Shown: positions 1 through 22,281 of the stretch, piece after piece
Position numbering within the stretch: the stretch's first letter is position 1
Layout of the letters: each line of letters begins with the position of its first letter
Translations under genes and position numbers: made by a program
Source of the DNA: a virus
Virus record (IMG/VR): IMGVR_UViG_3300043446_000888
Span: 1-30,365 of that record
Length of the DNA stretch: 30,365 nt
Strand: one strand, 5' to 3'
The notes under the pieces: model-generated
Told to the model about the DNA's origin: nothing
Seen by the model: the letters and a program-made list of their open reading frames with translations, nothing else
The model's database searches: none

Positions 1-1836
1 CGCCTGCCCGGCTCGATCAACATGAAGCCCGGCCGCAACAGCTTTGCCGCCCGGCTGGTCGAGTTTCACCCCGAGAACCAGTACACGCTCGCGCAGATTT
101 GCGAGGCCCTAGGCGTCGTGCCAGCCGAGGCGGCTGCCGCGTTCAAGCCCATCCGCGTCTCAGACGACGGCGCCGACGACGTGCTGGCTTGGCTCTCCGA
201 CCAAGGCTTGGTGCTGTCCAAGCCCAACGGCGAGGGCTGGGCCGGCGTCATCTGCCCTAACAGCGCCCAGCACAGCGACGGCAACCCCGAGGGGCGTTAT
301 AACCCCTCCATGCGGGCGTTTTGCTGCCTGCACAGCCACTGCATCGACCTAGACAGTAGCACGTTCTTGCAGTGGGTTGGCGAGCAGGGCGGCCCGCACC
401 ATGCGCCCGGCCTGCGCGATGAGCTGCTGGCTAACATGATGACCGACGCCCTTGGCAAGCTCCACCCGACCGAGCAGTTTCCCAACGAGGCCGCCCGCGT
501 GATCGCCGAGGTTGAGCGCAAGGAGTTGGGCCGCGTCGAGCGCGCGCAGTGGTACGAGCGCTTCGCCTACATTCAGGAGGGCGATCTGTACTTCGACATG
601 ATCGACCGCCGCGAGGTCAGCCGAAAGACCTTCAACGCCCTCTTTCGTCACATCGAATGCCGCAGCATCCACGGCAAAAGGCCCAAGGTCGAGGCCAGCA
701 TTTGCTTTGACGAGAACCGCCAGGCCATGGGCGCTCGGTCCCTGGTCGGCGTCACGTACGCGGCCGGCGAGGGGCTGCTGGTGGCCCGCGATGGTGACGT
801 GTACGGCAATCGCTGGCGCGACGCCCGCCCGGCCATCGTGGCCGACGCCAAGGCTAACGTTCGCCCCTGGCTGGAGCACTGCGAGGCGCTCATCCCCGAG
901 GCGTCTGAGCGCGAGCATATTTTTAACGTGATGGCTTACAAGGTCCAGCACCCCGAGGTGAAGATCAATCACGCTGTGCTGCATGGCGGCGATCAGGGCT
1001 GTGGCAAGGATACGCTCTGGGCCCCGTTCATCTGGGCGGTCTGCGGGCCGCAGTTCAAGAACCGGGGCTTGCTCGATAACGATACGCTGGGCTCCCAGTG
1101 GGGCTATCAGCTGGAATCGGAAGTGTTGATCTTGAATGAGCTGAAAGAGCCCGAGGCCAAGGACCGTCGGGCGCTGGCTAACAAGCTCAAGCCGATCATC
1201 GCAGCGCCCCCGGAGATGCTTACGATCAACCGCAAGGGTCTGCACCCGTATGACATGCTGAACCGCATGTTCGTGCTGGCCTTTAGCAATGACCCCGTGC
1301 CGATTTCGCTCGACTCCCAGGATCGCCGGTGGTTTTGCGTTTGGTCCGCAGCGCCTCGGATGGCCCCAGACGCTGCCGCGCGGCTGTGGGGTTGGTACAA
1401 GTCCGGCGGTTACGAGGCCATTGCCGCCTGGCTGAAAGCGCGGGACGTCTCGGCGTTTAACCCGTCCGCAGCGCCGGCCTGGACTGAATTCAAGTCCAAT
1501 CTGGTCGAGCACGGCATGTCCATCGCTGAATCGTACCTCGTGGAGCTTATGCGCGGCCGTAGGGGCGAGTTTTCCAAGGGTGTGGTGGGTAGCCCATTCC
1601 ACAGCCTTTGCGACCGTCTGGCGGCCGGCGCGCCCTCTGGCGTGAAAGTGCCCCAGGCTGCGCTCTTGCATGCGCTTAAAGAGGCTGGCTGGATCGACTG
1701 CGGCCGGATCAAATCGCGCGCCAACGATACCCGCAAACATGTGTTTTGCGCGCCTGATATGCAACTACACAGCAAGTCCGAATTGCGCGATTTGGTCGAG
1801 GACGCCGCGTCGCCGCTTATGGTGCGGGTGAAATAA
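1..1836 (+). CDS. Primase-polymerase/helicase, C-terminal part (5' end outside window)
   Basis: This is the 3' portion of a replicative primase-helicase of the phage/plasmid AEP-primase plus DUF5906/D5-like helicase type, which would prime and unwind DNA at the replication fork. The frame is open from base 1, and its first residues read RLPGSINMKPG. That resembles the RLPGTxNxKPG motif near the end of archaeo-eukaryotic primase domains, so the ATG at 22 is probably internal. A Cys/His cluster follows (Cys at 253, His at 271, then CCLHSHC at 322-342), as in primase zinc regions. The helicase core has a Walker A motif, GGDQGCGKDT, at 985-1014. A Walker B-like LILNE lies near 1126-1140, and a DRRWF arginine-finger/sensor segment at 1321-1335. 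The gene converges on the leftward small-gene operon and shares the intergenic terminator with it. I am confident of the helicase part; the primase domain itself is not visible here. Confidence 0.85.
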   Translation, partial: RLPGSINMKPGRNSFAARLVEFHPENQYTLAQICEALGVVPAEAAAAFKPIRVSDDGADDVLAWLSDQGLVLSKPNGEGWAGVICPNSAQHSDGNPEGRYNPSMRAFCCLHSHCIDLDSSTFLQWVGEQGGPHHAPGLRDELLANMMTDALGKLHPTEQFPNEAARVIAEVERKELGRVERAQWYERFAYIQEGDLYFDMIDRREVSRKTFNALFRHIECRSIHGKRPKVEASICFDENRQAMGARSLVGVTYAAGEGLLVARDGDVYGNRWRDARPAIVADAKANVRPWLEHCEALIPEASEREHIFNVMAYKVQHPEVKINHAVLHGGDQGCGKDTLWAPFIWAVCGPQFKNRGLLDNDTLGSQWGYQLESEVLILNELKEPEAKDRRALANKLKPIIAAPPEMLTINRKGLHPYDMLNRMFVLAFSNDPVPISLDSQDRRWFCVWSAAPRMAPDAAARLWGWYKSGGYEAIAAWLKARDVSAFNPSAAPAWTEFKSNLVEHGMSIAESYLVELMRGRRGEFSKGVVGSPFHSLCDRLAAGAPSGVKVPQAALLHALKEAGWIDCGRIKSRANDTRKHVFCAPDMQLHSKSELRDLVEDAASPLMVRVK

Positions 1837-3588: not shown

Positions 3589-3857
3589 GCGTTATCGGCA
3601 TAGGGATAAACCCTTACGAGCTTGGCGCGAACGTTGACGCGGAAGGCGTCGGCGCCAGCGCGCACGTATGTGACGCCCTTAGGCGTGCGCTGGTGCAGCT
3701 CGATCGCGCCAGGTAGCGACGGCGCAGCGGCCAGGCAGATAACGATCCATTGGGTGCGGCTAAGATGCCCCCGCACGTAGAGAACAGAAAGCGCTTCCTC
3801 AAGTTGCTGGCGGTTTTCAACGTGCGGAAGATGGATTAGGGGCTTTTTATGGGCCAT
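3585..3857 (-). CDS. Phage protein of unknown function, 90 aa, below the LexA-like box
   Basis: I use the ATG at 3855-3857 (MAHKKPLIHLPHVENRQQLE). The frame stays open to a GTG at 3992, but the extra 45 residues are low-complexity and lack a ribosome binding site. Even the chosen ATG has only a weak GAG upstream. The protein has a helical N-terminal half (QQLEEALSVLYVRGHLSRTQW, about residues 16-36) and a beta-rich, basic C-terminal half ending in VRVYPYADNA. It is the first gene leftward of the LexA-like palindrome, which overlaps a candidate promoter about 210 bases upstream. If that site works, this gene would be derepressed during host DNA damage. Function not recognised. Confidence 0.65.
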   Translation of the reverse strand: MAHKKPLIHLPHVENRQQLEEALSVLYVRGHLSRTQWIVICLAAAPSLPGAIELHQRTPKGVTYVRAGADAFRVNVRAKLVRVYPYADNA

Positions 3858-3939
3858 GGCGTGCTCGATAAAGTTGAGGGAAAACTGATAGTACGACAAA
3901 ACGTAGAAATACGCAAGAGCGTAAATGTAGGGGCTGTTT

Positions 3940-4037
3940 TGTGGGTAAGCGTGGGTTAAGAGTGGGTGATGGGAATTGGTGAGATTGTCCACGCGGTTTT
4001 CAGAGGAGAAATGTGTGGCTGTGGGTAATGTGGACTA
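3940..4037 (-). repeat. Left repeat array, CCCAC motif on minus strand
   Basis: Copies of GTGGGTAA-like units lie at 3941, 3951, 3963, 4021 and, more weakly, 4030 (GTGGACTA). Read on the minus strand, TTACCCACA occurs twice exactly (3940-3948 and 4020-4028), one base from the DnaA box TTATCCACA. On the plus strand TTGTCCACG lies at 3985-3993. These look like iterated protein-binding sites. Confidence 0.5.
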
Positions 4038-4070
4038 TTGGTTTGTTAATAGTTAGAGAGATAAAAAATA

Positions 4071-4086
4071 CTGTATATATATACAG
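4071..4086. promoter_or_regulatory. LexA (SOS) box-like palindrome
   Basis: CTGTATATATATACAG is a perfect 16-base palindrome and is identical to the core of the enterobacterial LexA consensus; the flanking TA on the left also fits. It covers the -10 element of a candidate leftward promoter, the usual position for LexA repression. An AT-rich palindrome could alternatively be a DNA-unwinding element. Confidence 0.65.
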
Positions 4087-4102
4087 GTAAAAGGCAGTGC
4101 AA
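4074..4102 (-). promoter_or_regulatory. Candidate leftward promoter overlapped by the LexA-like box
   Basis: On the minus strand TTGCAC (4097-4102) and TATATA (4074-4079) are 17 bases apart. Transcription would start near 4067 and reach the 90-residue gene at 3857 after a leader of about 210 bases that has no good start codon. Confidence 0.5.
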
Positions 4103-4131
4103 TAGCCCCGCGCCCTCGACGCAACACCACG

Positions 4132-4152
4132 CCAAAAAAATACGCTTTTTGG
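4132..4152. repeat. Short AT-rich inverted repeat
   Basis: CCAAAAA (4132-4138) pairs with TTTTTGG (4146-4152) around a 7-base loop. It lies between the palindrome and the right repeat array. It could be a weak terminator or part of an unwinding region; no role is assigned. Confidence 0.35.
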
Positions 4153-4173
4153 GGTAGACCTCCTGTCAACCCC

Positions 4174-4327
4174 ATTGCCCACTTGCCCACATTGACCACA
4201 AACCCCCACGCCAGCCCATGCGCTTACGCAGGCCATGCGACTTGCAACCCATGGCCCACATGGCCCACATGGCCCACATGGCTAACGGACGCATCCGACC
4301 GGCAAACCAATTGACCACATGGCCCAC
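4174..4327 (+). repeat. Right repeat array, iteron-like ATKGMCCAC units
   Basis: The 9-base unit ATGGCCCAC is repeated three times in tandem (4251-4277), followed by a degenerate copy ATGGCTAAC (4278-4286) and a further copy at 4319-4327. Related units lie at 4174 (ATTGCCCAC), 4183 (TTGCCCAC), 4191 (ATTGACCAC) and 4310 (ATTGACCAC). All point in the same direction and oppositely to the left array. The array lies about 150 bases before the terminase small subunit gene. Iterons, a partition/packaging site or operator repeats are all possible. Confidence 0.6.
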
Positions 4328-4481
4328 AGCATCCGGGCGCCTGGCCGCGCGGCAATCAAACACTTAGGTTTCTAAACTAAAAAGGCATTTTGCTTGGAGG
4401 GGGCGGGGGAGGGCCCGGAGCCGAGAGGTCACGGCAGCGGAGGGGCTACAAAAACTTTTTATTTTTTGCTATATTCGGCCC

Positions 4482-4955
4482 ATGTTCGAAACCCTGCCTT
4501 ACGAGCCGCGTCAGTTGCAAGCGACTGAAGACCGGCTGCATCGCATCTACAAGGCTGCCAAGCTTGGCCTTAAGGGTGACAACTTGGCACTGGCCGCAGG
4601 CATGCTGCCCAAGGAGTACGCCAGGCTCAAGCAGTTCGACAGCGTGGCGGAATATGCTGAGATGAAAGGCCGCGCTGATGGCGAGCTGCAAGCCAGTGAA
4701 CAGCTGCACGAAGCCGCAGCGCAGGGCGACGCCAAGGCGGCGCTGGCGATCCTCCAGAACGTCCACGGCTGGGTGGCTAAGCAGGCCATCAGTGTGGATG
4801 TCAACCAGCAGATCAGCATCACGGCGGCGCTGCAAGAAGCGCAGCGACGGGTGCGGGACGTGATCGACGTCACCGACGTAAAGGCCATCAATGAAGATAC
4901 TTCTATGGATCGTAGCCTTTCTGTTGGTCGTGTGGCTGATCAGCGTGCTGTTTGA
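4482..4955 (+). CDS. terS: Terminase small subunit
   Basis: This 157-residue protein is the likely DNA-recognition subunit of the packaging motor, which selects viral DNA and hands it to the large subunit. It lies directly before the large terminase gene and is nearly the same size as P22 gp3 (162 residues). The N-terminal half has a helix-turn-helix-like segment (LALAAGMLPKEYARLKQF, about residues 35-52). The middle reads GDAKAALAILQNVHGWVAKQAI, a segment I associate with phage small terminases, followed by a helical C-terminus. No ribosome binding site precedes the ATG. A TATATT -10-like hexamer ends only six bases before it, so the message may be leaderless, or the start may lie elsewhere. 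A 23-residue ORF overlaps its 3' end in another frame. Confidence 0.8.
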   Translation: MFETLPYEPRQLQATEDRLHRIYKAAKLGLKGDNLALAAGMLPKEYARLKQFDSVAEYAEMKGRADGELQASEQLHEAAAQGDAKAALAILQNVHGWVAKQAISVDVNQQISITAALQEAQRRVRDVIDVTDVKAINEDTSMDRSLSVGRVADQRAV

Positions 4956-7062: not shown

Positions 7063-7244
7063 GCAAACACCTCGAACCCATCAGCAAACTCAACGCCCGC
7101 GAGCCGAAAATCTCCGGCGGCGGTATGCCCGACCGCAACAAGGAGACGTACTCCAAGATGCCGGGCATGGGCTGCCACGGTAGCATCCCCAGCGGCACCA
7201 ACGTCAAGGCGACGGTTGCCAAGGTACTGAGCAAGATCAAGTAA
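7059..7244 (+). CDS. 61-residue Gly/Lys-rich phage protein
   Basis: The product begins MSKHLEPISKLNAREPKISG and contains GGMPDRNKETYSKMPGMGCHGSIP in its middle, ending in a basic helix (KATVAKVLSKIK). GGAG lies upstream and the ATG overlaps the previous stop as ATGA. It is the last of the tiny genes before the portal, whose ATG follows its stop by three bases. No recognised family or function. Confidence 0.75.
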   Translation: MSKHLEPISKLNAREPKISGGGMPDRNKETYSKMPGMGCHGSIPSGTNVKATVAKVLSKIK

Positions 7245-7247
7245 ACC

Positions 7248-9440
7248 ATGCCGCAAGACTACACAGGAGTCGTCGCTGCCGGTGCGGTCAGTGAAGGCGG
7301 CTCGGCCAAGGACAAAAGCGACGCTGATGTCCTCTCGACCGCCCGCTCCCGCCTGGACATGGCGATTTCTGCGTTGTCGGAGTCGCGTGAAGATGAGTTG
7401 GACGACCTGCGGTTCTACGCTGGCTCGCCCGACAACCACTGGCAGTGGCCCGCTGATGTGCTGGCAACCCGTGGTGCGGTCCAAGGGCAGACAATCAACG
7501 CTCGCCCCTGTCTGACCATCAACAAGCTGCCGCAGCACGTCCACCAGGTCACCAACGAGCAGCGCCTGAACCGCCCGCAGCCCAAGGTCATCCCGGTTGA
7601 TGACAAGGCTGACGTTGAGGTGGCAGAGATTTTCAACGGCGTCATCCGGCACATCGAATACATCAGCGACGCCGACGTAGCCTATGATACCGCGTGCGAA
7701 AACCAAGTCGCTTACGGCGAAGGTTACGTGCGTATTTTGACCGAGTACTGCGACGCAGACACGTTCAATCAGGACATCAAGATCGGGCGCATCAGGAACA
7801 GCTTCAGCGTCTACATGGACCCGCTGATCCAAGACCCGTGCGGCTCTGACGCTCGCTGGTGCTTTATCACCGAGGACATCCCGCGTGACGAGTACGAGCG
7901 CCAGTTTCCCAACGCCTCGCCGCTGACCACGCTGCAAACGCTGGGCGTCGGCGACCAAGGCATCAGCCAGTGGCTCAACGAGAACACGATCCGCATCGCT
8001 GAGTACTTTTACATCGAGAACACCAAAGAGACGCTGAACCTGTATCCGGGCAACGTCACCGCGTTCCAGGGCTCGCCCGAGGACAAGATGCTGCGGATGC
8101 AGTTCGGCAAGCCCCTGCGCTCACGCCAGTCCGACCGCAAGCGCGTCAAGTGGCTCAAAATTAACGGCTACGAGGTGCTTGAGCGGGCCGACTGGGCAGG
8201 CTCGCACATCCCGGTGATTCGCTGCGTGGGCAACGAGTTTGAGGTTGAGGGTCGTCTGTACGTCAGCGGTCTGGTGCGTAACGCCAAAGACGCGCAGCGC
8301 ATGTACAACTACTGGACCAGCCAGGAAGCTGAGATGCTGGCGCTGGCCCCCAAGGCCCCGTTCATCGGCTATGGCGGCCAGTTCGAGGGCTACGAGACTC
8401 AGTGGAAAACGGCCAACACGCAGAACTGGCCGTATCTTGAGGTCAATCCTGACGTCACAGACGGCGCAGGAGCCGTTTTGCCGCTGCCGCAGCGAGCAGC
8501 TCCACCGCTACCCCAAACTGGCCTCATACAGGCCAAAATGGGCGCTGCCGACGACATCAAGAGCGTCACCGGACAGTACAACGCATCGCTGGGCCAAACG
8601 TCCAACGAGCGCAGCGGCAAAGCCATTTTGGCCCGCCAGCGCGAGTCCGACACCGGCACCTACCACTACGTTGACAACTACGCCCGCATGATTCGCTACG
8701 TCGGGCGGCAGCTGGTCGATTTGATCCCAAAAATCTACGACACCGAGCGCATCGCCCGCATCATCCAAGAGGACGGCGAGTCGGGCATGGTCAAGATCAA
8801 CCCGATGCAGCAAGAGCCGGTCAAGAAGATCCGCAACGAGCAGGGCATCGTGATCGACAAGATCTACAACCCCAGTGTCGGCAAGTACGACGTACGCGTC
8901 ATCACCGGACCAGGCTTTCAGACCAAACGTCAGGAGTCGCTGGAGGCGATGGCTCAGTTGCTGCAAGGCAACCCGCAGCTTTGGAGCGTGGCGGGCGACC
9001 TGTTCATCAAGAACATGGACTGGCCGGGCGCTCAGGAAATGTCTAAGCGCTTTGCCAAGGTTATCGATCCGAAGATCATCGGCGACGAGGAAGACAACCC
9101 GGCGCTGGCTGCGGCCAAGCAGCAGATCGAGGCGATGAACGCCGAGATGCAGCAGATGGCGGGTATGCTTCAGAACGTGCAGAAATCGTTCGAGGCACGC
9201 GACGTGCAGATCAAGGAGTTCAAGGCCGACATCGAAGCCTACAATGCTGAAACCAAGCGGATTGCGGCAGTGCAGGCTGGCATGACCGAGCAGCAGATTC
9301 AGGACATCGCTATGGGCGTCGTGGCTGCCGCGATGGAGAGCAACGATTTGATTGCCGGACATGAACAGCGCGAAATGCCTGAGATGGGTGAAGCGCCGTC
9401 TGAGCAGCCCATGATGCCGCCTCAAGGAGCCATGCAATGA
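7248..9440 (+). CDS. Portal protein, P22 gp1-like
   Basis: Portal proteins form the dodecameric ring at one capsid vertex through which DNA enters and leaves and onto which the tail is built. The 730 residues compare with 725 in P22. Features I associate with the P22-type portal family are AYGEGYVRILTEY near residue 155, VYMDPLIQDP near 190, the KSVTGQYNASLGQTSNERSGKAI segment near 440, and a Gln/Met-rich helical C-terminal barrel from about residue 620. The position after the terminase genes is as expected. No strong ribosome binding site precedes the ATG, so translation may depend on coupling to the upstream small gene. The stop overlaps the next start as ATGA. Confidence 0.93.
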   Translation: MPQDYTGVVAAGAVSEGGSAKDKSDADVLSTARSRLDMAISALSESREDELDDLRFYAGSPDNHWQWPADVLATRGAVQGQTINARPCLTINKLPQHVHQVTNEQRLNRPQPKVIPVDDKADVEVAEIFNGVIRHIEYISDADVAYDTACENQVAYGEGYVRILTEYCDADTFNQDIKIGRIRNSFSVYMDPLIQDPCGSDARWCFITEDIPRDEYERQFPNASPLTTLQTLGVGDQGISQWLNENTIRIAEYFYIENTKETLNLYPGNVTAFQGSPEDKMLRMQFGKPLRSRQSDRKRVKWLKINGYEVLERADWAGSHIPVIRCVGNEFEVEGRLYVSGLVRNAKDAQRMYNYWTSQEAEMLALAPKAPFIGYGGQFEGYETQWKTANTQNWPYLEVNPDVTDGAGAVLPLPQRAAPPLPQTGLIQAKMGAADDIKSVTGQYNASLGQTSNERSGKAILARQRESDTGTYHYVDNYARMIRYVGRQLVDLIPKIYDTERIARIIQEDGESGMVKINPMQQEPVKKIRNEQGIVIDKIYNPSVGKYDVRVITGPGFQTKRQESLEAMAQLLQGNPQLWSVAGDLFIKNMDWPGAQEMSKRFAKVIDPKIIGDEEDNPALAAAKQQIEAMNAEMQQMAGMLQNVQKSFEARDVQIKEFKADIEAYNAETKRIAAVQAGMTEQQIQDIAMGVVAAAMESNDLIAGHEQREMPEMGEAPSEQPMMPPQGAMQ

Positions 9441-13431: not shown

Positions 13432-13965
13432 ATGGAAAGGGACAATCAGCATCTGACACCTGACGAACTGAAGCGGCAACGCAACAGAGAAGCAGCGGCC
13501 AGATACCGAGAACGAAACCGGGAAAAGTTCAATCAGCGCATGCGCGATTGGCGAGCAGAAAACCGGGAGAAATCCCGCGAAATGTCTCGTGAATGGCGCA
13601 ACCGCAAGTTGGCGATGGCGACACCTGAAGAAGCCGCTCAAATCAGAAGGGCTGAAGCAGACAAAACCAGACGCATTCAAGCGGTGTGCAGGGACCAAGT
13701 GTTTGCCGCTTACGGTGGCTACAAGTGCAACTGCTGTGGTGAAACTGAACCAATGTTTTTGTCAATTGACCACATAAACAACGATGGCGCCGCTGAACGC
13801 AAGTCAGGCAAATACAAAGGTGGAGGGTCAGCCTTCTACAATTGGCTTCGCAAGACAGGCTTCCCAGAAGGCTACCAAGTGTTGTGTATGAATTGTCAAG
13901 TGGGAAAACATAAGAACGGCGGCGTTTGTCCTCACCAAACTTCTTTGACACTGAAAGGAAATTGA
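13432..13965 (+). CDS. Free-standing HNH homing-type endonuclease
   Basis: This 177-residue protein has a Zn-stabilised HNH nuclease fold. CNCCGE and LCMNCQVGKHKNGG (around residues 99 and 150) supply the paired Cys residues, and LSIDHINNDG (near residue 110) carries the catalytic His and Asn-rich segment. The N-terminus has iterated RNREAAARYRERNREKF-type units (about residues 16-60), as in related phage HNH proteins, probably for DNA binding. AGGAG lies six bases before the ATG. It interrupts the usual scaffold-coat pair, the typical location of a selfish homing endonuclease. It has lower GC than its neighbours. Confidence 0.88.
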   Translation: MERDNQHLTPDELKRQRNREAAARYRERNREKFNQRMRDWRAENREKSREMSREWRNRKLAMATPEEAAQIRRAEADKTRRIQAVCRDQVFAAYGGYKCNCCGETEPMFLSIDHINNDGAAERKSGKYKGGGSAFYNWLRKTGFPEGYQVLCMNCQVGKHKNGGVCPHQTSLTLKGN

Positions 13966-16833: not shown

Positions 16834-18269
16834 TGAAAACCCCAATCCTCGGCTCGACGTATGTGGCCCGCAGCGTCAACGCTGCGGATGCCCGCATGGT
16901 CAACCTGTATCCCGAGGTGCTGCAAGAGGGTAAAGAAGCGGCGTACTTGCAGCGTTGCCCAGGTCTGCTCACGCTTGCCAGCATCGGCGCCGGGCCGATC
17001 CGGGGCCTATGGGCGTTTTCGTCCGACAACACCGTGGCCTTCGTTGTCTCGGGAACGGAGTTGTACAAAATCAACACCAACTACACGGCCACATTGTTAG
17101 GCGTTGTTGCGGGTGCTGGACCTGTCAGTATGGCCGACAACGGCACTCAGTTGTTTATTGCGGCAAATGGGCCAAGCTACATCTACAACAATCAGACCAA
17201 CGTCTTTGCACCCATCACCGACCCGGACTTCCCCGGCGCGGTGACCGTGGGTTATCTGGACGGCTACTTTGTCTTCAACGAGCCGAACAGCCAGAAAATC
17301 TGGGTGACTGCGCTACTTGACGGTACCTCGATTGACCCACTCGACTTTGCCAGCGCAGAAGGCTCGCCCGACGGCGTGGTGGGCATCATCGTCGATCACC
17401 GCGAAGTCTGGGTCTATGGCACCAACAGCGTCGAGGTTTGGTATGACACCGGCGCCAGCGACTTTCCGCTTCAGCGCATCCAAGGCGCGTTCAATGAGAT
17501 CGGCTGTATCTCAGCCTACACCGTCGCCAAACTCGACAATGGCTTGTTTTGGCTAGGCGCTGATGCTCGCGGCCAAGGCATCGTATACCGGGCCAACGGT
17601 TACACCGGCCAACGTATCTCCACGCACGCCGTCGAATGGCACATTCAGCAGTATGGCAACCTGACCGACGCGCTGGCATACACCTACCAGCAAGACGGCC
17701 ACAGCTTCTACGTTCTGATTTTCCCGAGCGCCAACACGACTTGGGTGTATGACGTAGCCACACAGGCATGGCATGAGCGGGCCGGGTGGAGCAATGGCTC
17801 GTTTACGCGCCACCGCAGCAACTGCCAGATGGCGTTCAACAATCAAATCATTGTCGGTGACTACGAGAACGGCAACATCTACGCCTTCGACATGGACACC
17901 TATGCCGACAACGGCCAGATTCAAAAGTGGCTGCGGACCTGGCGAGCACTGCCGCCCGGGCAGAACAACCTCAAGCGCACCACGCAGCACGCGATGCAGA
18001 TTGACATCGAGTCGGGCGTTGGTCTGAACTTGGGTCAGGGCAGCGACCCCGAGGTGATGTTGCGCTGGTCGGACGATGGCGGCCACACCTGGTCCAATGA
18101 ACATTGGTCCAAGGTAGGCAAGATCGGCGAGTTCTACCGCCGCGTGTGGTTCCGCAGGCTTGGCATGACGCTCAAGCTGCGCGACCGAGTGTACGAGTTG
18201 TCGATGACCGATCCTGTGAAGACGGCCATCATGGGCGCCGAACTGATCATCAGCCCGACCAATGCCTAA
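16833..18269 (+). CDS. P22 gp10-like packaged-DNA stabilisation protein
   Basis: Gp10-type proteins form the ring below gp4 and stabilise packaged DNA. The 478 residues compare with 472 in P22 gp10. The start MKTPILGSTYVARSVNAADA, with ARMVNLYPE at residues 21-29, is typical of the family. Repeated Trp/Tyr-containing beta blades follow (VWVYGTNSVEVWYDTG, TTWVYDVATQAWHERAGW), consistent with a beta-propeller-like body. It is coupled to the gp4-like gene by a TGATG overlap and overlaps the fibre gene by eight bases. Confidence 0.9.
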   Translation: MKTPILGSTYVARSVNAADARMVNLYPEVLQEGKEAAYLQRCPGLLTLASIGAGPIRGLWAFSSDNTVAFVVSGTELYKINTNYTATLLGVVAGAGPVSMADNGTQLFIAANGPSYIYNNQTNVFAPITDPDFPGAVTVGYLDGYFVFNEPNSQKIWVTALLDGTSIDPLDFASAEGSPDGVVGIIVDHREVWVYGTNSVEVWYDTGASDFPLQRIQGAFNEIGCISAYTVAKLDNGLFWLGADARGQGIVYRANGYTGQRISTHAVEWHIQQYGNLTDALAYTYQQDGHSFYVLIFPSANTTWVYDVATQAWHERAGWSNGSFTRHRSNCQMAFNNQIIVGDYENGNIYAFDMDTYADNGQIQKWLRTWRALPPGQNNLKRTTQHAMQIDIESGVGLNLGQGSDPEVMLRWSDDGGHTWSNEHWSKVGKIGEFYRRVWFRRLGMTLKLRDRVYELSMTDPVKTAIMGAELIISPTNA

Positions 18270-21200
18270 TCCTAGCGCCACGCCGACGCCGATCACCCCT
18301 CCTCGGGTGGCGCTGATCGACGCGCGCACCGGGCTGATTGATCGGTCGTGGTACATGTTCTTTCTGTCGCTGTTTCGGGCAGCGCAGACAATCGACAACA
18401 ACCCCGATGTCGGGCCTAGCGCCGAGTCGCTGATTGCGTCCTACGCGGCTGAATTGGAAGTGCTGACGCAGATTGTTGGCACGCAGTTCAACTCTGAGTC
18501 AATGCTGGCGTCGCTTGAGGCCGCCATCAATGTCCTGCGCGACCAGCACAATCTGCAACCGTCGCCGCAAGTCGGCGAGTTGCAGCAGCAGATCGACGCG
18601 CTGCGCCAGGAGATCCAAACCCAGCGCCAGCCGGAACTGGGCAGCATGGCTCCGCTTGAGCAGGACAACGTACCGTGGCTGACGTTCAACACCGCCCCAT
18701 CGCCCGTTCCAACGGCTGTGGGCACGATGGCCTGGGACGGCGGCACGACGATGGGTTTGCAGGCTACAGCCAACGTGCTGATGCGCATCGGCGAGTCCGA
18801 GTTCGTTTACGTCAAGGCCAGCAGCGCCATCACCAAGGGCCAGTTGTGCTACCACACGGGCGCTGTGGGCGGCTCCGGCGTCATCACTGCCGCCCCTACG
18901 CCGCTGGCGCTGGCCGATCCCAATCAGATCGTCGGCGTCGCCGCCGAGTCGATTGCGCTTAACGGCTTTGGCTTGATTCAGATCAGCGGCGACTTGCGCG
19001 GCTTCAACACGACCGGCAGCAGCGTTGGCGAGACATGGGCCGATGGCGACCCGCTGTACTACAACCCCGCCTACGTCGGCAGCTTCACCAAGACCAAGCC
19101 CTCAGCCCCAAACCAGAAGACCTACATTGGTGAGGTCATCAACGCTAGCAGCGGGGGGTCTGGTTCGATCAACGTCCGCATCATCCCCGGCTCAGTGTTG
19201 GGCGGCACTGACAGCAACGTGCAATTCAGCGGGTTGGCGAACAGCGACCTGATCCAATACGACAGCACTGCTGGATACTGGAAAAACGTCCCTGCCTCGA
19301 CGTTGCCGGTCGGCACGGCCACCAACATTGCAGGCGGCGCGGCAGGCTCAGTGCCGTATCAGTCCGCGCCCAGCACCACGACGTTTTTGTCTATCGGCGC
19401 TGTTGGGCGTTGGCTAGGCTCGTCTGGCACCGCACCGCAGTGGAATGCGCCTGCGGCGCTTACCAAAACCGATGACACCAACGTCACGCTGACACTGGGC
19501 GGCAGCGCGTCTACGGCGCTGCTGAACGCCGCGTCGCTGACGCTGGGCTGGACAGGTCAGCTTGCCGTCAGCCGGGGCGGCACAGGTGTTGCTACGGCCA
19601 CCGCCAATACCGTGTTTGCCGGTCCGACAACTGGTGCGGCGGCAGCCCCTAGCTTCCGCGCTCTTGTCTCAGGCGACATCCCTGCGCTGTCCTATGTCAG
19701 TTCGGTGGGCGCTACGGCCCCCATCACATCAACTGGTGGCCTGACGCCGACGATTGGCGTTACCTCGGCTGCGCTAACTAAGGTAGACGACACCAACGTC
19801 ACTTTGACCTTGGGTGGTTCGCCCACGACCGCTTTGCTGGCAGCTACATCCTTGACGCTGGGCTGGACAGGTCAGCTTAGTGTAGCTCGGGGCGGCACAG
19901 GCTCCTCAACGGCGGCAGGCGCGATAACCAACTTGGGCGCAACAACGGTCGGCGGCAACTTTTTTACGCTAACCAATCCTAGCGCGATCACATTTCCTCG
20001 CATCAATGCTGACAATACCGTTAGCGCTTTAACCGCTTCCGCGTTTAGAACCGCAATTGGCGCTGGTACTGGCAACGGAACAGTGACCTCCGTTAGCTGG
20101 ACAGGAGGGATTGTTTCTGTTGCAACGGCCACTACAACGCCCGCGTTTACGATTGCAGGGACTTCTGGCGGCATTCCTTACTTTTCTAGCGCAAGCACTT
20201 GGGCATCTTCGGCTGCGCTTGCTGCAAATGCTATCGTTTTGGGCGGCGGCGCGGGTGCTGCTCCAGCAACCACTACGACGGGAACTGGTGTCGTTACGGC
20301 CCTTGGCGTAAACACTGGTACTGCTGGCGCGTTTGTTGTTAACGGCGGCGCGCTTGGTACGCCATCATCTGGCACCGTTACAAATCTTACCGGCACCGCT
20401 AGCATCAACATTAACGGTACTGTAGGAGCGACCACTCCTAACACGGGCGCGTTTACTTCGGTAACGTCAACCAGTGCCGCTGGCGTTTTGACTCGCGCTG
20501 CGGCTACTCAAGACGGCGTTGAAATGATTGGCCGTGCAGGTGGCACGACTTCGCTTAAAGTATCGCTGACGCCCACTACGCTGACCGCATCTCGCACTGT
20601 TACGCTGCCAGATGCAAACATCGACTTTACCGCTGGCCTTGCAGTAGCAAACGGTGGTACTGGCTCGACCACTGCAAGTGGAGCGCGTACCAATTTGGGC
20701 GCGACGACAGTTGGCAGCAATTTTTTTACGCTGACCAACCCCAGTGCCATCACTTTCCCCCGTATTAATGCTGACAACACAGTTAGCGCCTTAGATGCTG
20801 CGACTTTTCGCACCGCAATCGGCGCTGGCACAGGTAGCGGCACAGTCACATCTGTTACCGGGACATCGCCAGTTGTGTCCTCTGGTGGTACAACACCGGC
20901 GATTAGCCTTGCATCGGGTTATGGAGACACACAGAACCCATACGCCAGCAAAACTGCCAATTTTGTTTTGGCTGCACCCAACGGCAGCGCGGGCGCTCCA
21001 ACTTTTCGCGCCATTGTTGCTGCTGATATTCCAACACTGAACCAAAACACCACTGGTTCGGCGGGGTACGTCGCCAACTCGGGTGGCGCCATCGCCAACA
21101 TTTCGGCTCCCGGTTCGGGGACGTATAACATCCATTATTGGTACGCCAACTCAACTGAGATGGCGATTGAAACCGCATTGGCGACCAATGTTGTTGGTGG

Positions 21201-22281
21201 GGCCAAACTGCCAATGTATTTCACTTGGCGCGGAGGGTACGCTACTCAAGGTGGTCTTGCCATCACTGGTCCCTCTACGGCTGCGCTTGGTGGGTATCCG
21301 ATCTACACCACCGCCAGTACCGTGGCAGTTGCCAACGGTGGCACGGGCGTCACCACCACGCCTACCAACGGCCAGTTGCTGATCGGTAACGGCACTGGCT
21401 ACACGGTTGCCAACCTGACCGCAGGCACGGGCGTCAGCATCTCCAACTCGGCTGGTGGCATTTCGATCTCGGCCACTGGCACGGGCGGCACGGTCACCAG
21501 CGTGTCTGTCGTGTCTGCCAACGGCTTTGCCGGTACTGTGGCGACAGCGACGACCACGCCAGCGATCACCATCTCGACCAGCATCACCGGGCTGCTGTAC
21601 GGCAACGGTACGGCCATCGCCGCCGCCACGGTTAGCGCACCTCTGACGTACTCGGCGGGCACCCTGGCGATCACCCAGGCCACGACCAGCACAAACGGCT
21701 ATCTGAGCAGCACGGACTGGAACACGTTTAACAACAAACAGCCCGCTGGCACCTACGTTACCTCGGTCACTGGCACATCACCCGTGGCGTCCAGTGGCGG
21801 CACGACTCCGGCAATCAGTCTAGCTTCAGGCTACGGCGACACCCAAAACCCGTATGCCAGCAAGACGGCCAACACCTTTTTGGCTGCACCCAACGGGTCA
21901 GCCGGTGTGCCGACCTTTCGTGCGATTGTGGCTGCTGACATCCCGTCGCTGCCGTACCAGCCAACAGCAGCCCCAGTCACTTACACGGCCAACTTTTCCG
22001 TGGCGGCCACGGATGTCTGGATCATCAACAACAAATCCGGGTCATCCTGCACTGCCACGCTGCCAGCCGCCTCAAGCTACTCGGGTCGGGTGCTGCGGTT
22101 TCAGAACTACCAGACCCAGACCCTTGTTTCTGCCTCGTCGAACGTCGTGCAGATTGGGGGCGGCGCTGCAACCACGTCCATTTTGCTGGCAAGCGCCGGG
22201 GACCAGGCTACCCTTGTGTCCGATGGCACAAATTGGATAATGATGCAATACATCCCGAACAACATCCTACTCTTGGAGTGA
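18262..22281 (+). CDS. Large tail fibre protein with internal repeats, 1339 aa
   Basis: The N-terminus (RVALIDARTGLIDRSWYMFF at residues 15-34) has the Trp-Tyr-x-Phe-Phe pattern found at the virion end of many podovirus fibres. A coiled coil follows (about 85-125, LQQQIDALRQEIQTQR), then a beta domain (150-310). About 900 residues of Gly/Thr-rich tail-fibre repeats come next, including three duplicated segments listed separately. The C-terminal 100 residues (FSVAATDVWIINNKSG, then LVSDGTNWIMMQYI) form a cap domain. No intramolecular chaperone is recognised. There is no ribosome binding site, and the ATG lies inside the gp10-like gene, so translation is probably coupled. P22 has its needle gene (gp26) here, so this protein occupies the needle's place in gene order. 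Confidence 0.85.
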   Translation: MPNPSATPTPITPPRVALIDARTGLIDRSWYMFFLSLFRAAQTIDNNPDVGPSAESLIASYAAELEVLTQIVGTQFNSESMLASLEAAINVLRDQHNLQPSPQVGELQQQIDALRQEIQTQRQPELGSMAPLEQDNVPWLTFNTAPSPVPTAVGTMAWDGGTTMGLQATANVLMRIGESEFVYVKASSAITKGQLCYHTGAVGGSGVITAAPTPLALADPNQIVGVAAESIALNGFGLIQISGDLRGFNTTGSSVGETWADGDPLYYNPAYVGSFTKTKPSAPNQKTYIGEVINASSGGSGSINVRIIPGSVLGGTDSNVQFSGLANSDLIQYDSTAGYWKNVPASTLPVGTATNIAGGAAGSVPYQSAPSTTTFLSIGAVGRWLGSSGTAPQWNAPAALTKTDDTNVTLTLGGSASTALLNAASLTLGWTGQLAVSRGGTGVATATANTVFAGPTTGAAAAPSFRALVSGDIPALSYVSSVGATAPITSTGGLTPTIGVTSAALTKVDDTNVTLTLGGSPTTALLAATSLTLGWTGQLSVARGGTGSSTAAGAITNLGATTVGGNFFTLTNPSAITFPRINADNTVSALTASAFRTAIGAGTGNGTVTSVSWTGGIVSVATATTTPAFTIAGTSGGIPYFSSASTWASSAALAANAIVLGGGAGAAPATTTTGTGVVTALGVNTGTAGAFVVNGGALGTPSSGTVTNLTGTASININGTVGATTPNTGAFTSVTSTSAAGVLTRAAATQDGVEMIGRAGGTTSLKVSLTPTTLTASRTVTLPDANIDFTAGLAVANGGTGSTTASGARTNLGATTVGSNFFTLTNPSAITFPRINADNTVSALDAATFRTAIGAGTGSGTVTSVTGTSPVVSSGGTTPAISLASGYGDTQNPYASKTANFVLAAPNGSAGAPTFRAIVAADIPTLNQNTTGSAGYVANSGGAIANISAPGSGTYNIHYWYANSTEMAIETALATNVVGGAKLPMYFTWRGGYATQGGLAITGPSTAALGGYPIYTTASTVAVANGGTGVTTTPTNGQLLIGNGTGYTVANLTAGTGVSISNSAGGISISATGTGGTVTSVSVVSANGFAGTVATATTTPAITISTSITGLLYGNGTAIAAATVSAPLTYSAGTLAITQATTSTNGYLSSTDWNTFNNKQPAGTYVTSVTGTSPVASSGGTTPAISLASGYGDTQNPYASKTANTFLAAPNGSAGVPTFRAIVAADIPSLPYQPTAAPVTYTANFSVAATDVWIINNKSGSSCTATLPAASSYSGRVLRFQNYQTQTLVSASSNVVQIGGGAATTSILLASAGDQATLVSDGTNWIMMQYIPNNILLLE
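19461..19903 (+). repeat. Fibre repeat A, two copies
   Basis: A unit of about 42 residues (DDTNVTLTLGGS, then SLTLGWTGQL) occurs at about 19461-19587 and 19777-19903. The protein is largely conserved, while the DNA differs at many third positions, so the duplication is not recent or has been maintained at protein level. Confidence 0.75.
19891..20857 (+). repeat. Fibre repeat B, two copies
   Basis: A 68-residue unit (GGTGSTTASGARTNLGATTV onward, through FFTLTNPSAITFPRINADN) occurs at 19891-20095 and 20652-20857. By eye, about 60 of 68 residues are identical between copies, with third-position DNA divergence. Confidence 0.8.
20854..21951 (+). repeat. Fibre repeat C, two copies
   Basis: A unit of about 62 residues (SGGTTPAISLASGYGDTQNP, through GSAGxPTFRAIVAADIP) occurs at about 20854-21037 and 21765-21951. 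Copies are nearly identical in protein but diverged in DNA. The first copy directly abuts repeat B copy 2. Confidence 0.8.

Follow-up and report, generated by a model that had tools for sequence, protein, structure and literature searches.

A putative iteron origin in an uncultured podovirus-like phage and its covariation with the predicted wing of a primase-helicase

We analyzed a stretch of 30,365 bases from an IMG/VR virus contig (the window, by which we mean this whole stretch) and find that an array of 9-bp repeats in front of the gene for the terminase small subunit (terS) carries a word that, among relatives, changes together with a few residues of the phage's own primase-helicase. We propose, with a probability of roughly 0.85, that positions 3941-4330 are an iteron replication origin of an uncultured podovirus-like phage, read by the wing of its primase/SF3-helicase. 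This reading builds on the array itself, its conservation, its uniqueness within each genome and its covariation with the wing. The covariation means that protein and repeats work together; we infer in addition that replication starts there. An earlier note, made on the window alone, had offered a bidirectional origin as one option for this locus and host DnaA or the terminase small subunit as proteins that might bind it. A replication origin is strongly supported by our analysis, with the phage primase-helicase as the probable reader in place of either of those proteins.

The window carries P22-like head genes (terminase large subunit, portal, scaffold and coat), and the array is flanked by small leftward genes on one side and by terS on the other. 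Elsewhere in the window, an HNH endonuclease gene (13432-13965) has been inserted directly in front of the gene for the major head protein, and a 1339-aa open reading frame (18262-22281) without a PHROG match lies among the virion genes. Relatives found in MAGs carry the labels Rhodoferax, Burkholderiales and Methylococcaceae; a freshwater proteobacterium is the probable host, as a guess from this binning.

Outward-pointing repeats around an AT-rich core

Multiple short direct repeats cluster at one locus in the window, as they do in 12 relatives. The 9-bp family, roughly AT-K-R-M-CCAC, has 13 units in 630 bp versus 14 in the other 29.7 kb. Its form WTKRMCCAC occurs 12 times in the window, 8 of them within 4021-4327, while whole-window shuffles give a mean of 3.95 and a maximum of 11. 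The units are heterogeneous, and this is also true of the nearest wing relatives (L141-L146). The earlier note had placed the units on the minus strand to the left of a central palindrome and on the plus strand to the right, including a tandem triplet of nine bases. This arrangement holds with the exception of one plus-strand unit inside the left arm, and the triplet consists of exact copies with a 9-bp period (Table 1). A plus-strand unit at the place equivalent to this exception recurs in many relatives. Absent from the earlier note are a pair of 28-nt arms forming an imperfect inverted repeat and the AT-rich stretch at 4034-4093.

The earlier note had also counted, by hand, 61 G and 14 C in 3901-4080 and 47 G and 91 C in 4081-4320, and had described a sharp flip in GC skew between these flanks. 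Both the counts and the flip are correct: the skew jump, which is the skew of the 180 bp to the left minus that of the 240 bp to the right computed along the window, peaks at 4094 with a value of 1.03, the runner-up in the window being 0.41 and the standard deviation 0.13. With the repeat units masked the skew is still +0.63 on the left and -0.27 on the right, so the units are not the sole cause of the flip. We therefore discarded the idea that the flip is a mere by-product of the units; something besides them contributes to the skew of both flanks.

An AT-rich region adjoins the repeats, as in iteron-type origins, and in relatives it is likewise found near the center of the array. In the window its AT content is the highest of any 60 bp in the region, and we propose it as a candidate DNA unwinding element. 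It contains a perfect LexA-type palindrome. With up to 3 mismatches, 0.04 matches to this 16-mer are expected in the window, and such matches occur in 49 of the 177 relative loci described below (0.2 expected). Part of these 49 are related but different palindromes (CTATATAGCTATACAG, CTCTCTATATATACAT), leaving the strict LexA-like form in roughly 35, and the box is restricted to part of the group. We conjecture that through it DNA damage might act on the origin or the left operon.

Table 1. Features of the proposed origin and its reader (positions in the window)
Feature	Position	Strand	Description
Primase / SF3 helicase (DUF5906), proposed origin-binding initiator	22-1836	+	
Predicted C-terminal winged-helix domain	1522-1809	+	residues ~501-596; AF2 models
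Specificity segment	1702-1737	+	codons of residues 561-572, GRIKSRANDTRK
Two iteron units	3941-3949, 3951-3959	minus	CTTACCCAC, TTAACCCAC
Lone unit in left arm	3984-3992	plus	ATTGTCCAC
Left arm of 28-nt imperfect inverted repeat	4018-4045		86% complementary to 4303-4330
Tandem pair	4021-4029, 4030-4038	minus	ATTACCCAC, ATAGTCCAC
AT-rich core	4034-4093	no strand	77% AT
LexA-type palindrome	4071-4086	no strand	CTGTATATATATACAG; CTGT-N8-ACAG, in AT-rich core
Three units	4174-4182, 4182-4190, 4191-4199	plus	ATTGCCCAC, CTTGCCCAC, ATTGACCAC
Exact tandem triplet	4251-4259, 4260-4268, 4269-4277	plus	ATGGCCCAC
Right arm of 28-nt inverted repeat	4303-4330	+	holds units ATTGACCAC (4310-4318) and ATGGCCCAC (4319-4327)
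Conserved G-rich block, then T-rich tract	4396-4467		between array and terS, outside the word-switching part
Terminase small subunit (terS)	4482-4955	+	position, homology to relatives, annotation of DSL-LC05

Between the array and terS, the G-rich block and T-rich tract are kept in many relatives, and 28 nt of them are 93% identical even in DSL-LC05. It is a candidate for a packaging site or for an element of a late promoter. About 6 bases before the terS ATG there is a TATATT (GCTATATTCGGCCCATG; 4470-4484), which is present in relatives too (GGTATATTCCGCGCATG). Were this a -10 element, transcripts of terS would have almost no leader.

Layout and word among relatives

Starting from 80 terL relatives and three scans with the primase C-terminus, we collected 177 distinct loci that have a primase tail and an array region. 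The earlier note had stated that its proposal would fail if all related genomes lacked the repeats and the skew switch at this locus. The layout is found throughout the group; the exact strong skew flip is not general, with a test of +0.1/-0.1 passed by 41 of 120 loci. The order in relatives is minus-strand units, a single plus unit, a minus pair, the AT-rich core, and then plus pairs or triplets that extend to ~150 bp before terS. In the 120 loci that have at least 4 tandem units, 92% of units are oriented as this two-sided layout predicts.

The sequence of the unit differs among phages and is largely uniform inside each. For instance, we find ATTGTCCAC, ATGACCCAA, ATGAC[TC]CAC, ATTGCCTAC, ATTGTCCAT, ATAGCCCAC and others; in all, the 120 loci have 17 words, which are consensus calls, and more lie outside our search template. 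In each of 12 large contigs from relatives, copies of the phage's own word are confined to one cluster at the place of the array, apart from a stray copy at most, and words of other phages occur singly or not at all. In phages with units that do not fit the template, the wings are unusual and different words are repeated, for example GRLMSR[DN]YTS with ATGACTAAC.

A few relatives have additional elements near the array. In some clades (L017, L020, L038-like) a constant pair, ATTGCCCAC/ATGACCCAC, lies about -36 and -27 before terS; it is independent of the phage's own word and shows no covariation with the wing, and we kept it out of the covariation test. In four loci (L018, L021, L027, L077) the iterons are separated from the G-rich block by another repeat family, which is palindromic (AAGTTAGT...ACTAACTT). 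In MW202483 (L082), the array uses TGTTTACAT-type repeats, a homing endonuclease gene separates it from terS, and a gene beside that of the primase (7083-7379) encodes 98 aa that include a DnaA C-terminal domain (PF08299).

Covariation of the repeat word with the predicted wing of the primase-helicase

The protein that follows the word is a primase-helicase. In the window its N-terminus is missing, as the contig begins inside the gene; relatives have ~765 residues with a RepB_primase domain, which in a full-length relative has an E-value of 1.5e-5, just above our cut-off. An SF3 helicase core is supported by a DUF5906 match (PF19263, E 3.8e-11) and by fold matches to NrS-1, PriRep1 and D5. The domain-only AF2 model of the C-terminus has a pLDDT of mostly about 90; from an alignment used for folding, a row of the annotated phage collection was left out. 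Against the PDB this isolated domain has no confident match, and its weak matches are winged-helix-like (E 0.1 or worse). In the AlphaFold models, residues 564-571 form a predicted wing, that is, a loop between strands 558-563 and 572-576, and the helix 545-554 is nearly invariant.

Among all proteins of 33 records, the primase-helicase is the only universal gene product with a much higher similarity inside word classes than across them (81% versus 64%). For terS, terL, portal, polymerase and helicase, this gap is about -1 to +3 points in the 33 genomes. We scanned the primase-helicase with a 12-aa window over 120 loci, using an oriented word template, removing units within 135 bp of terS and leaving out phages whose units misfit the template. 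The correlation with the word peaks at residues 555-572 (r = 0.63-0.67), where controlling for the protein's own backbone hardly changes it (partial r = 0.62-0.66), and residues 561-572 give a Mantel r of 0.67. Nearly everywhere else in the protein r is about 0.05-0.25, rising to 0.27-0.37 just downstream of the segment. Permutation maxima are 0.09 when free and 0.20 within backbone clusters. An earlier word-distance metric, which counted reverse complements and off-register matches, for that reason yielded no more than a weak peak (partial 0.28).

At the level of single positions, residue 566 tracks DNA position 9: R goes with C in 82 loci and G, A or S with A in 36, with 2 exceptions. Because the sequences are related, and the E-values and p-values above and below treat a clade-structured sample, we added a tree-aware test of independent pairs on a codon-level backbone tree. 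For 566 and position 9, 6 of 6 pairs are concordant (p = 0.031), and for 569 and position 5 about 8 are concordant and 0 discordant (p = 0.008); 136 control residues average about 0. On a protein-level tree just 4 independent pairs are supported, all of them concordant (p = 0.125). The wing also has predictive value: among phages more than 10% diverged, the nearest wing gives the exact word in 71% of cases, compared with 17-22% for the nearest recognition helix, backbone or TerS and 20% for a random donor.

L144 and L149 differ by 0.3% in the backbone and 0.7% in TerS, yet both wing and word differ (GRLKSRANDTKK with ATTGTCCAC in L144, GRLASADYPSKK with ATGACCCAA in L149). Parts of the DNA between their primase tails and arrays are 90-98% identical. 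L004 and L005 likewise have near-identical backbones and a different wing and word. Although parts of the intervening DNA stay so similar in L144/L149, the primase tail and the array could be partly co-transferred by recombination, and this bears on the view that the array is a compositional accident or shared descent, in which functionless C-rich repeats are tied to the primase tail by linkage only. The tail and the array are indeed ~2-3 kb apart and exchangeable together, and sequence counts are non-independent events. Against it, there is one cluster per genome, the association peaks within 18 residues and falls on both sides, and it holds within backbone clusters, in independent pairs and across diverged donors. 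We consider this explanation hardly credible.

The covariation also bears on a packaging role, another option of the earlier note, in which the repeats are a pac or cos site bound by the terminase small subunit. Such sites are often located directly upstream of terS, which is where the array lies, and a separate conserved G-rich block sits between the two. However, the word covaries with the 12 primase-helicase residues and hardly with TerS (r = 0.11, partial 0.07), and L004/L005 and L015/L280 have TerS proteins 99-100% alike with different words. By this indirect test TerS is rejected as the reader of the repeats, and a packaging role for them is very improbable. Where the array switches, the G-rich block and terS remain almost unchanged, and any packaging function here belongs to the block.

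A third option of the earlier note, an operator array, fares somewhat better as a side function. In this explanation the initiator or another phage regulator controls divergent promoters for the left operon and terS, with LexA at the central box. The divergent gene layout and the perfect LexA-type box are consistent with it, and initiators often autoregulate; the primase-helicase could use the array for regulation instead. On the other side, a promoter scan found no sigma-70-like promoter in 3800-4600, no other universal protein covaries with the word, no unit cluster lies near the primase gene, and most relatives have no LexA-type box. As the main role of the array we judge it improbable, and an origin remains our main reading. 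A terminator scan, an Rfam search and a tRNA search found nothing.

Finally, the units might be host DnaA boxes resembling TTATCCACA. A single base separates the word TTGTCCACA, found in several relatives, from a DnaA box, and MW202483 encodes a small DnaA domain-IV-like protein. But words such as ATGACCCAA and ATGACTCAC bear little resemblance to DnaA boxes, and phages whose genes are near-identical can differ in their word, so this is not a DnaA-box origin pattern and host DnaA is extremely unlikely to be the reader. The annotated DnaA helix-turn-helix gene of MW202483 prompted us to consider a DnaA-like protein as a general reader; PF08299 is present in 1 of 33 records, this same one, and not in the window, and we dropped the candidate.

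Proposed mechanism and known systems

We propose that the ~13 copies of the 9-bp iteron, which point outward from the AT-rich core, would be bound by the primase/SF3-helicase through its C-terminal winged helix, one subunit per unit. Helicase rings would thereby be loaded on both sides of the core, which would then melt so that replication can initiate. Binding is strongly implied because of the covariation, as far as sequence comparison can tell, and we infer origin function from what the protein is, a primase joined to an SF3 helicase, and from its functional relatives SaPI Rep, Cch2 and PLE RepA. The two-sided layout suggests that replication may be bidirectional. Base identity in the iteron would be read mainly by the wing (residues 564-571) and not by the recognition helix; judging from the models, it is plausible that constant bases are read or held by the helix, with positions 3-5, 7 and 9 left for the wing to read. 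Wing and iterons would change together, giving each phage lineage its own origin word.

A further reading, which we advance tentatively and which may well prove wrong, is that the wing is a compact specificity cassette in which few residues set a private 9-bp word, with a code in which R at 566 goes with C, and G, A or S with A, at position 9, and D at 569 goes with T at position 5. A private origin would shield a phage from something that recognizes origins, for instance a satellite, a co-infecting relative or an origin-directed nuclease, and this would explain the many switches on near-constant backgrounds.

It has long been asked how an initiator and its origin can acquire a new specificity in concert while the replicon survives, and most studies have had two or three natural alleles to work with. 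This group is a large natural allelic series with specificity on one short loop and near-identical pairs as ready-made controls, and it permits direct tests of why phages change their origin word. The series also allows the word to be predicted from protein sequence and candidate origins to be located in uncultured phage genomes. Specificity in the wing instead of the recognition helix is unusual for winged-helix proteins.

The satellite phage P4 alpha protein is a primase-helicase fusion whose C-terminal origin-binding part reads short iterons (ori1/crr). P4 has a second site, crr; in contrast, the 12 large relative contigs have no second unit cluster. SaPI Rep and SCCmec Cch2 are helicases whose C-terminal domain recognizes short direct repeats, the iterons at the element's origin (PMC7581432). 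We propose the same for the window protein, of which PriRep1 of SaPI5 (PDB 7pds) is a fold match. These C-terminal domains are not alignable by sequence with that of the window protein. Here, moreover, the replicon is a phage and not an island, ~2-3 kb separate the gene from the array downstream of it, outward units flank an AT-rich core, and many alleles map to the wing. The NrS-1 primase-polymerase-helicase (PDB 6k9c/6k9e/6lrb; PMC7102993) is both the best PDB sequence match (E 2.5e-4) and the best fold match (E 1.4e-14), with a helicase body, head and tail. The available text of its report gives one 8-nt recognition sequence in two copies and no iteron array, calls the tail a novel fold, and describes no covariation of tail and repeat (PMC7102993). 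PLE RepA of Vibrio cholerae satellites covaries with its own origin (PMC8263062), and the exchange there has been linked to escape from the Odn nuclease (PMC8263062, PMC7145576). Unlike the wing described here, the RepA_N domain is unrelated, the whole domain switches and few alleles are known (PMC8263062, PMC7145576). The architecture is known in kind, and a wing-encoded, many-allele recognition code appears, within the open-access literature, to be new.
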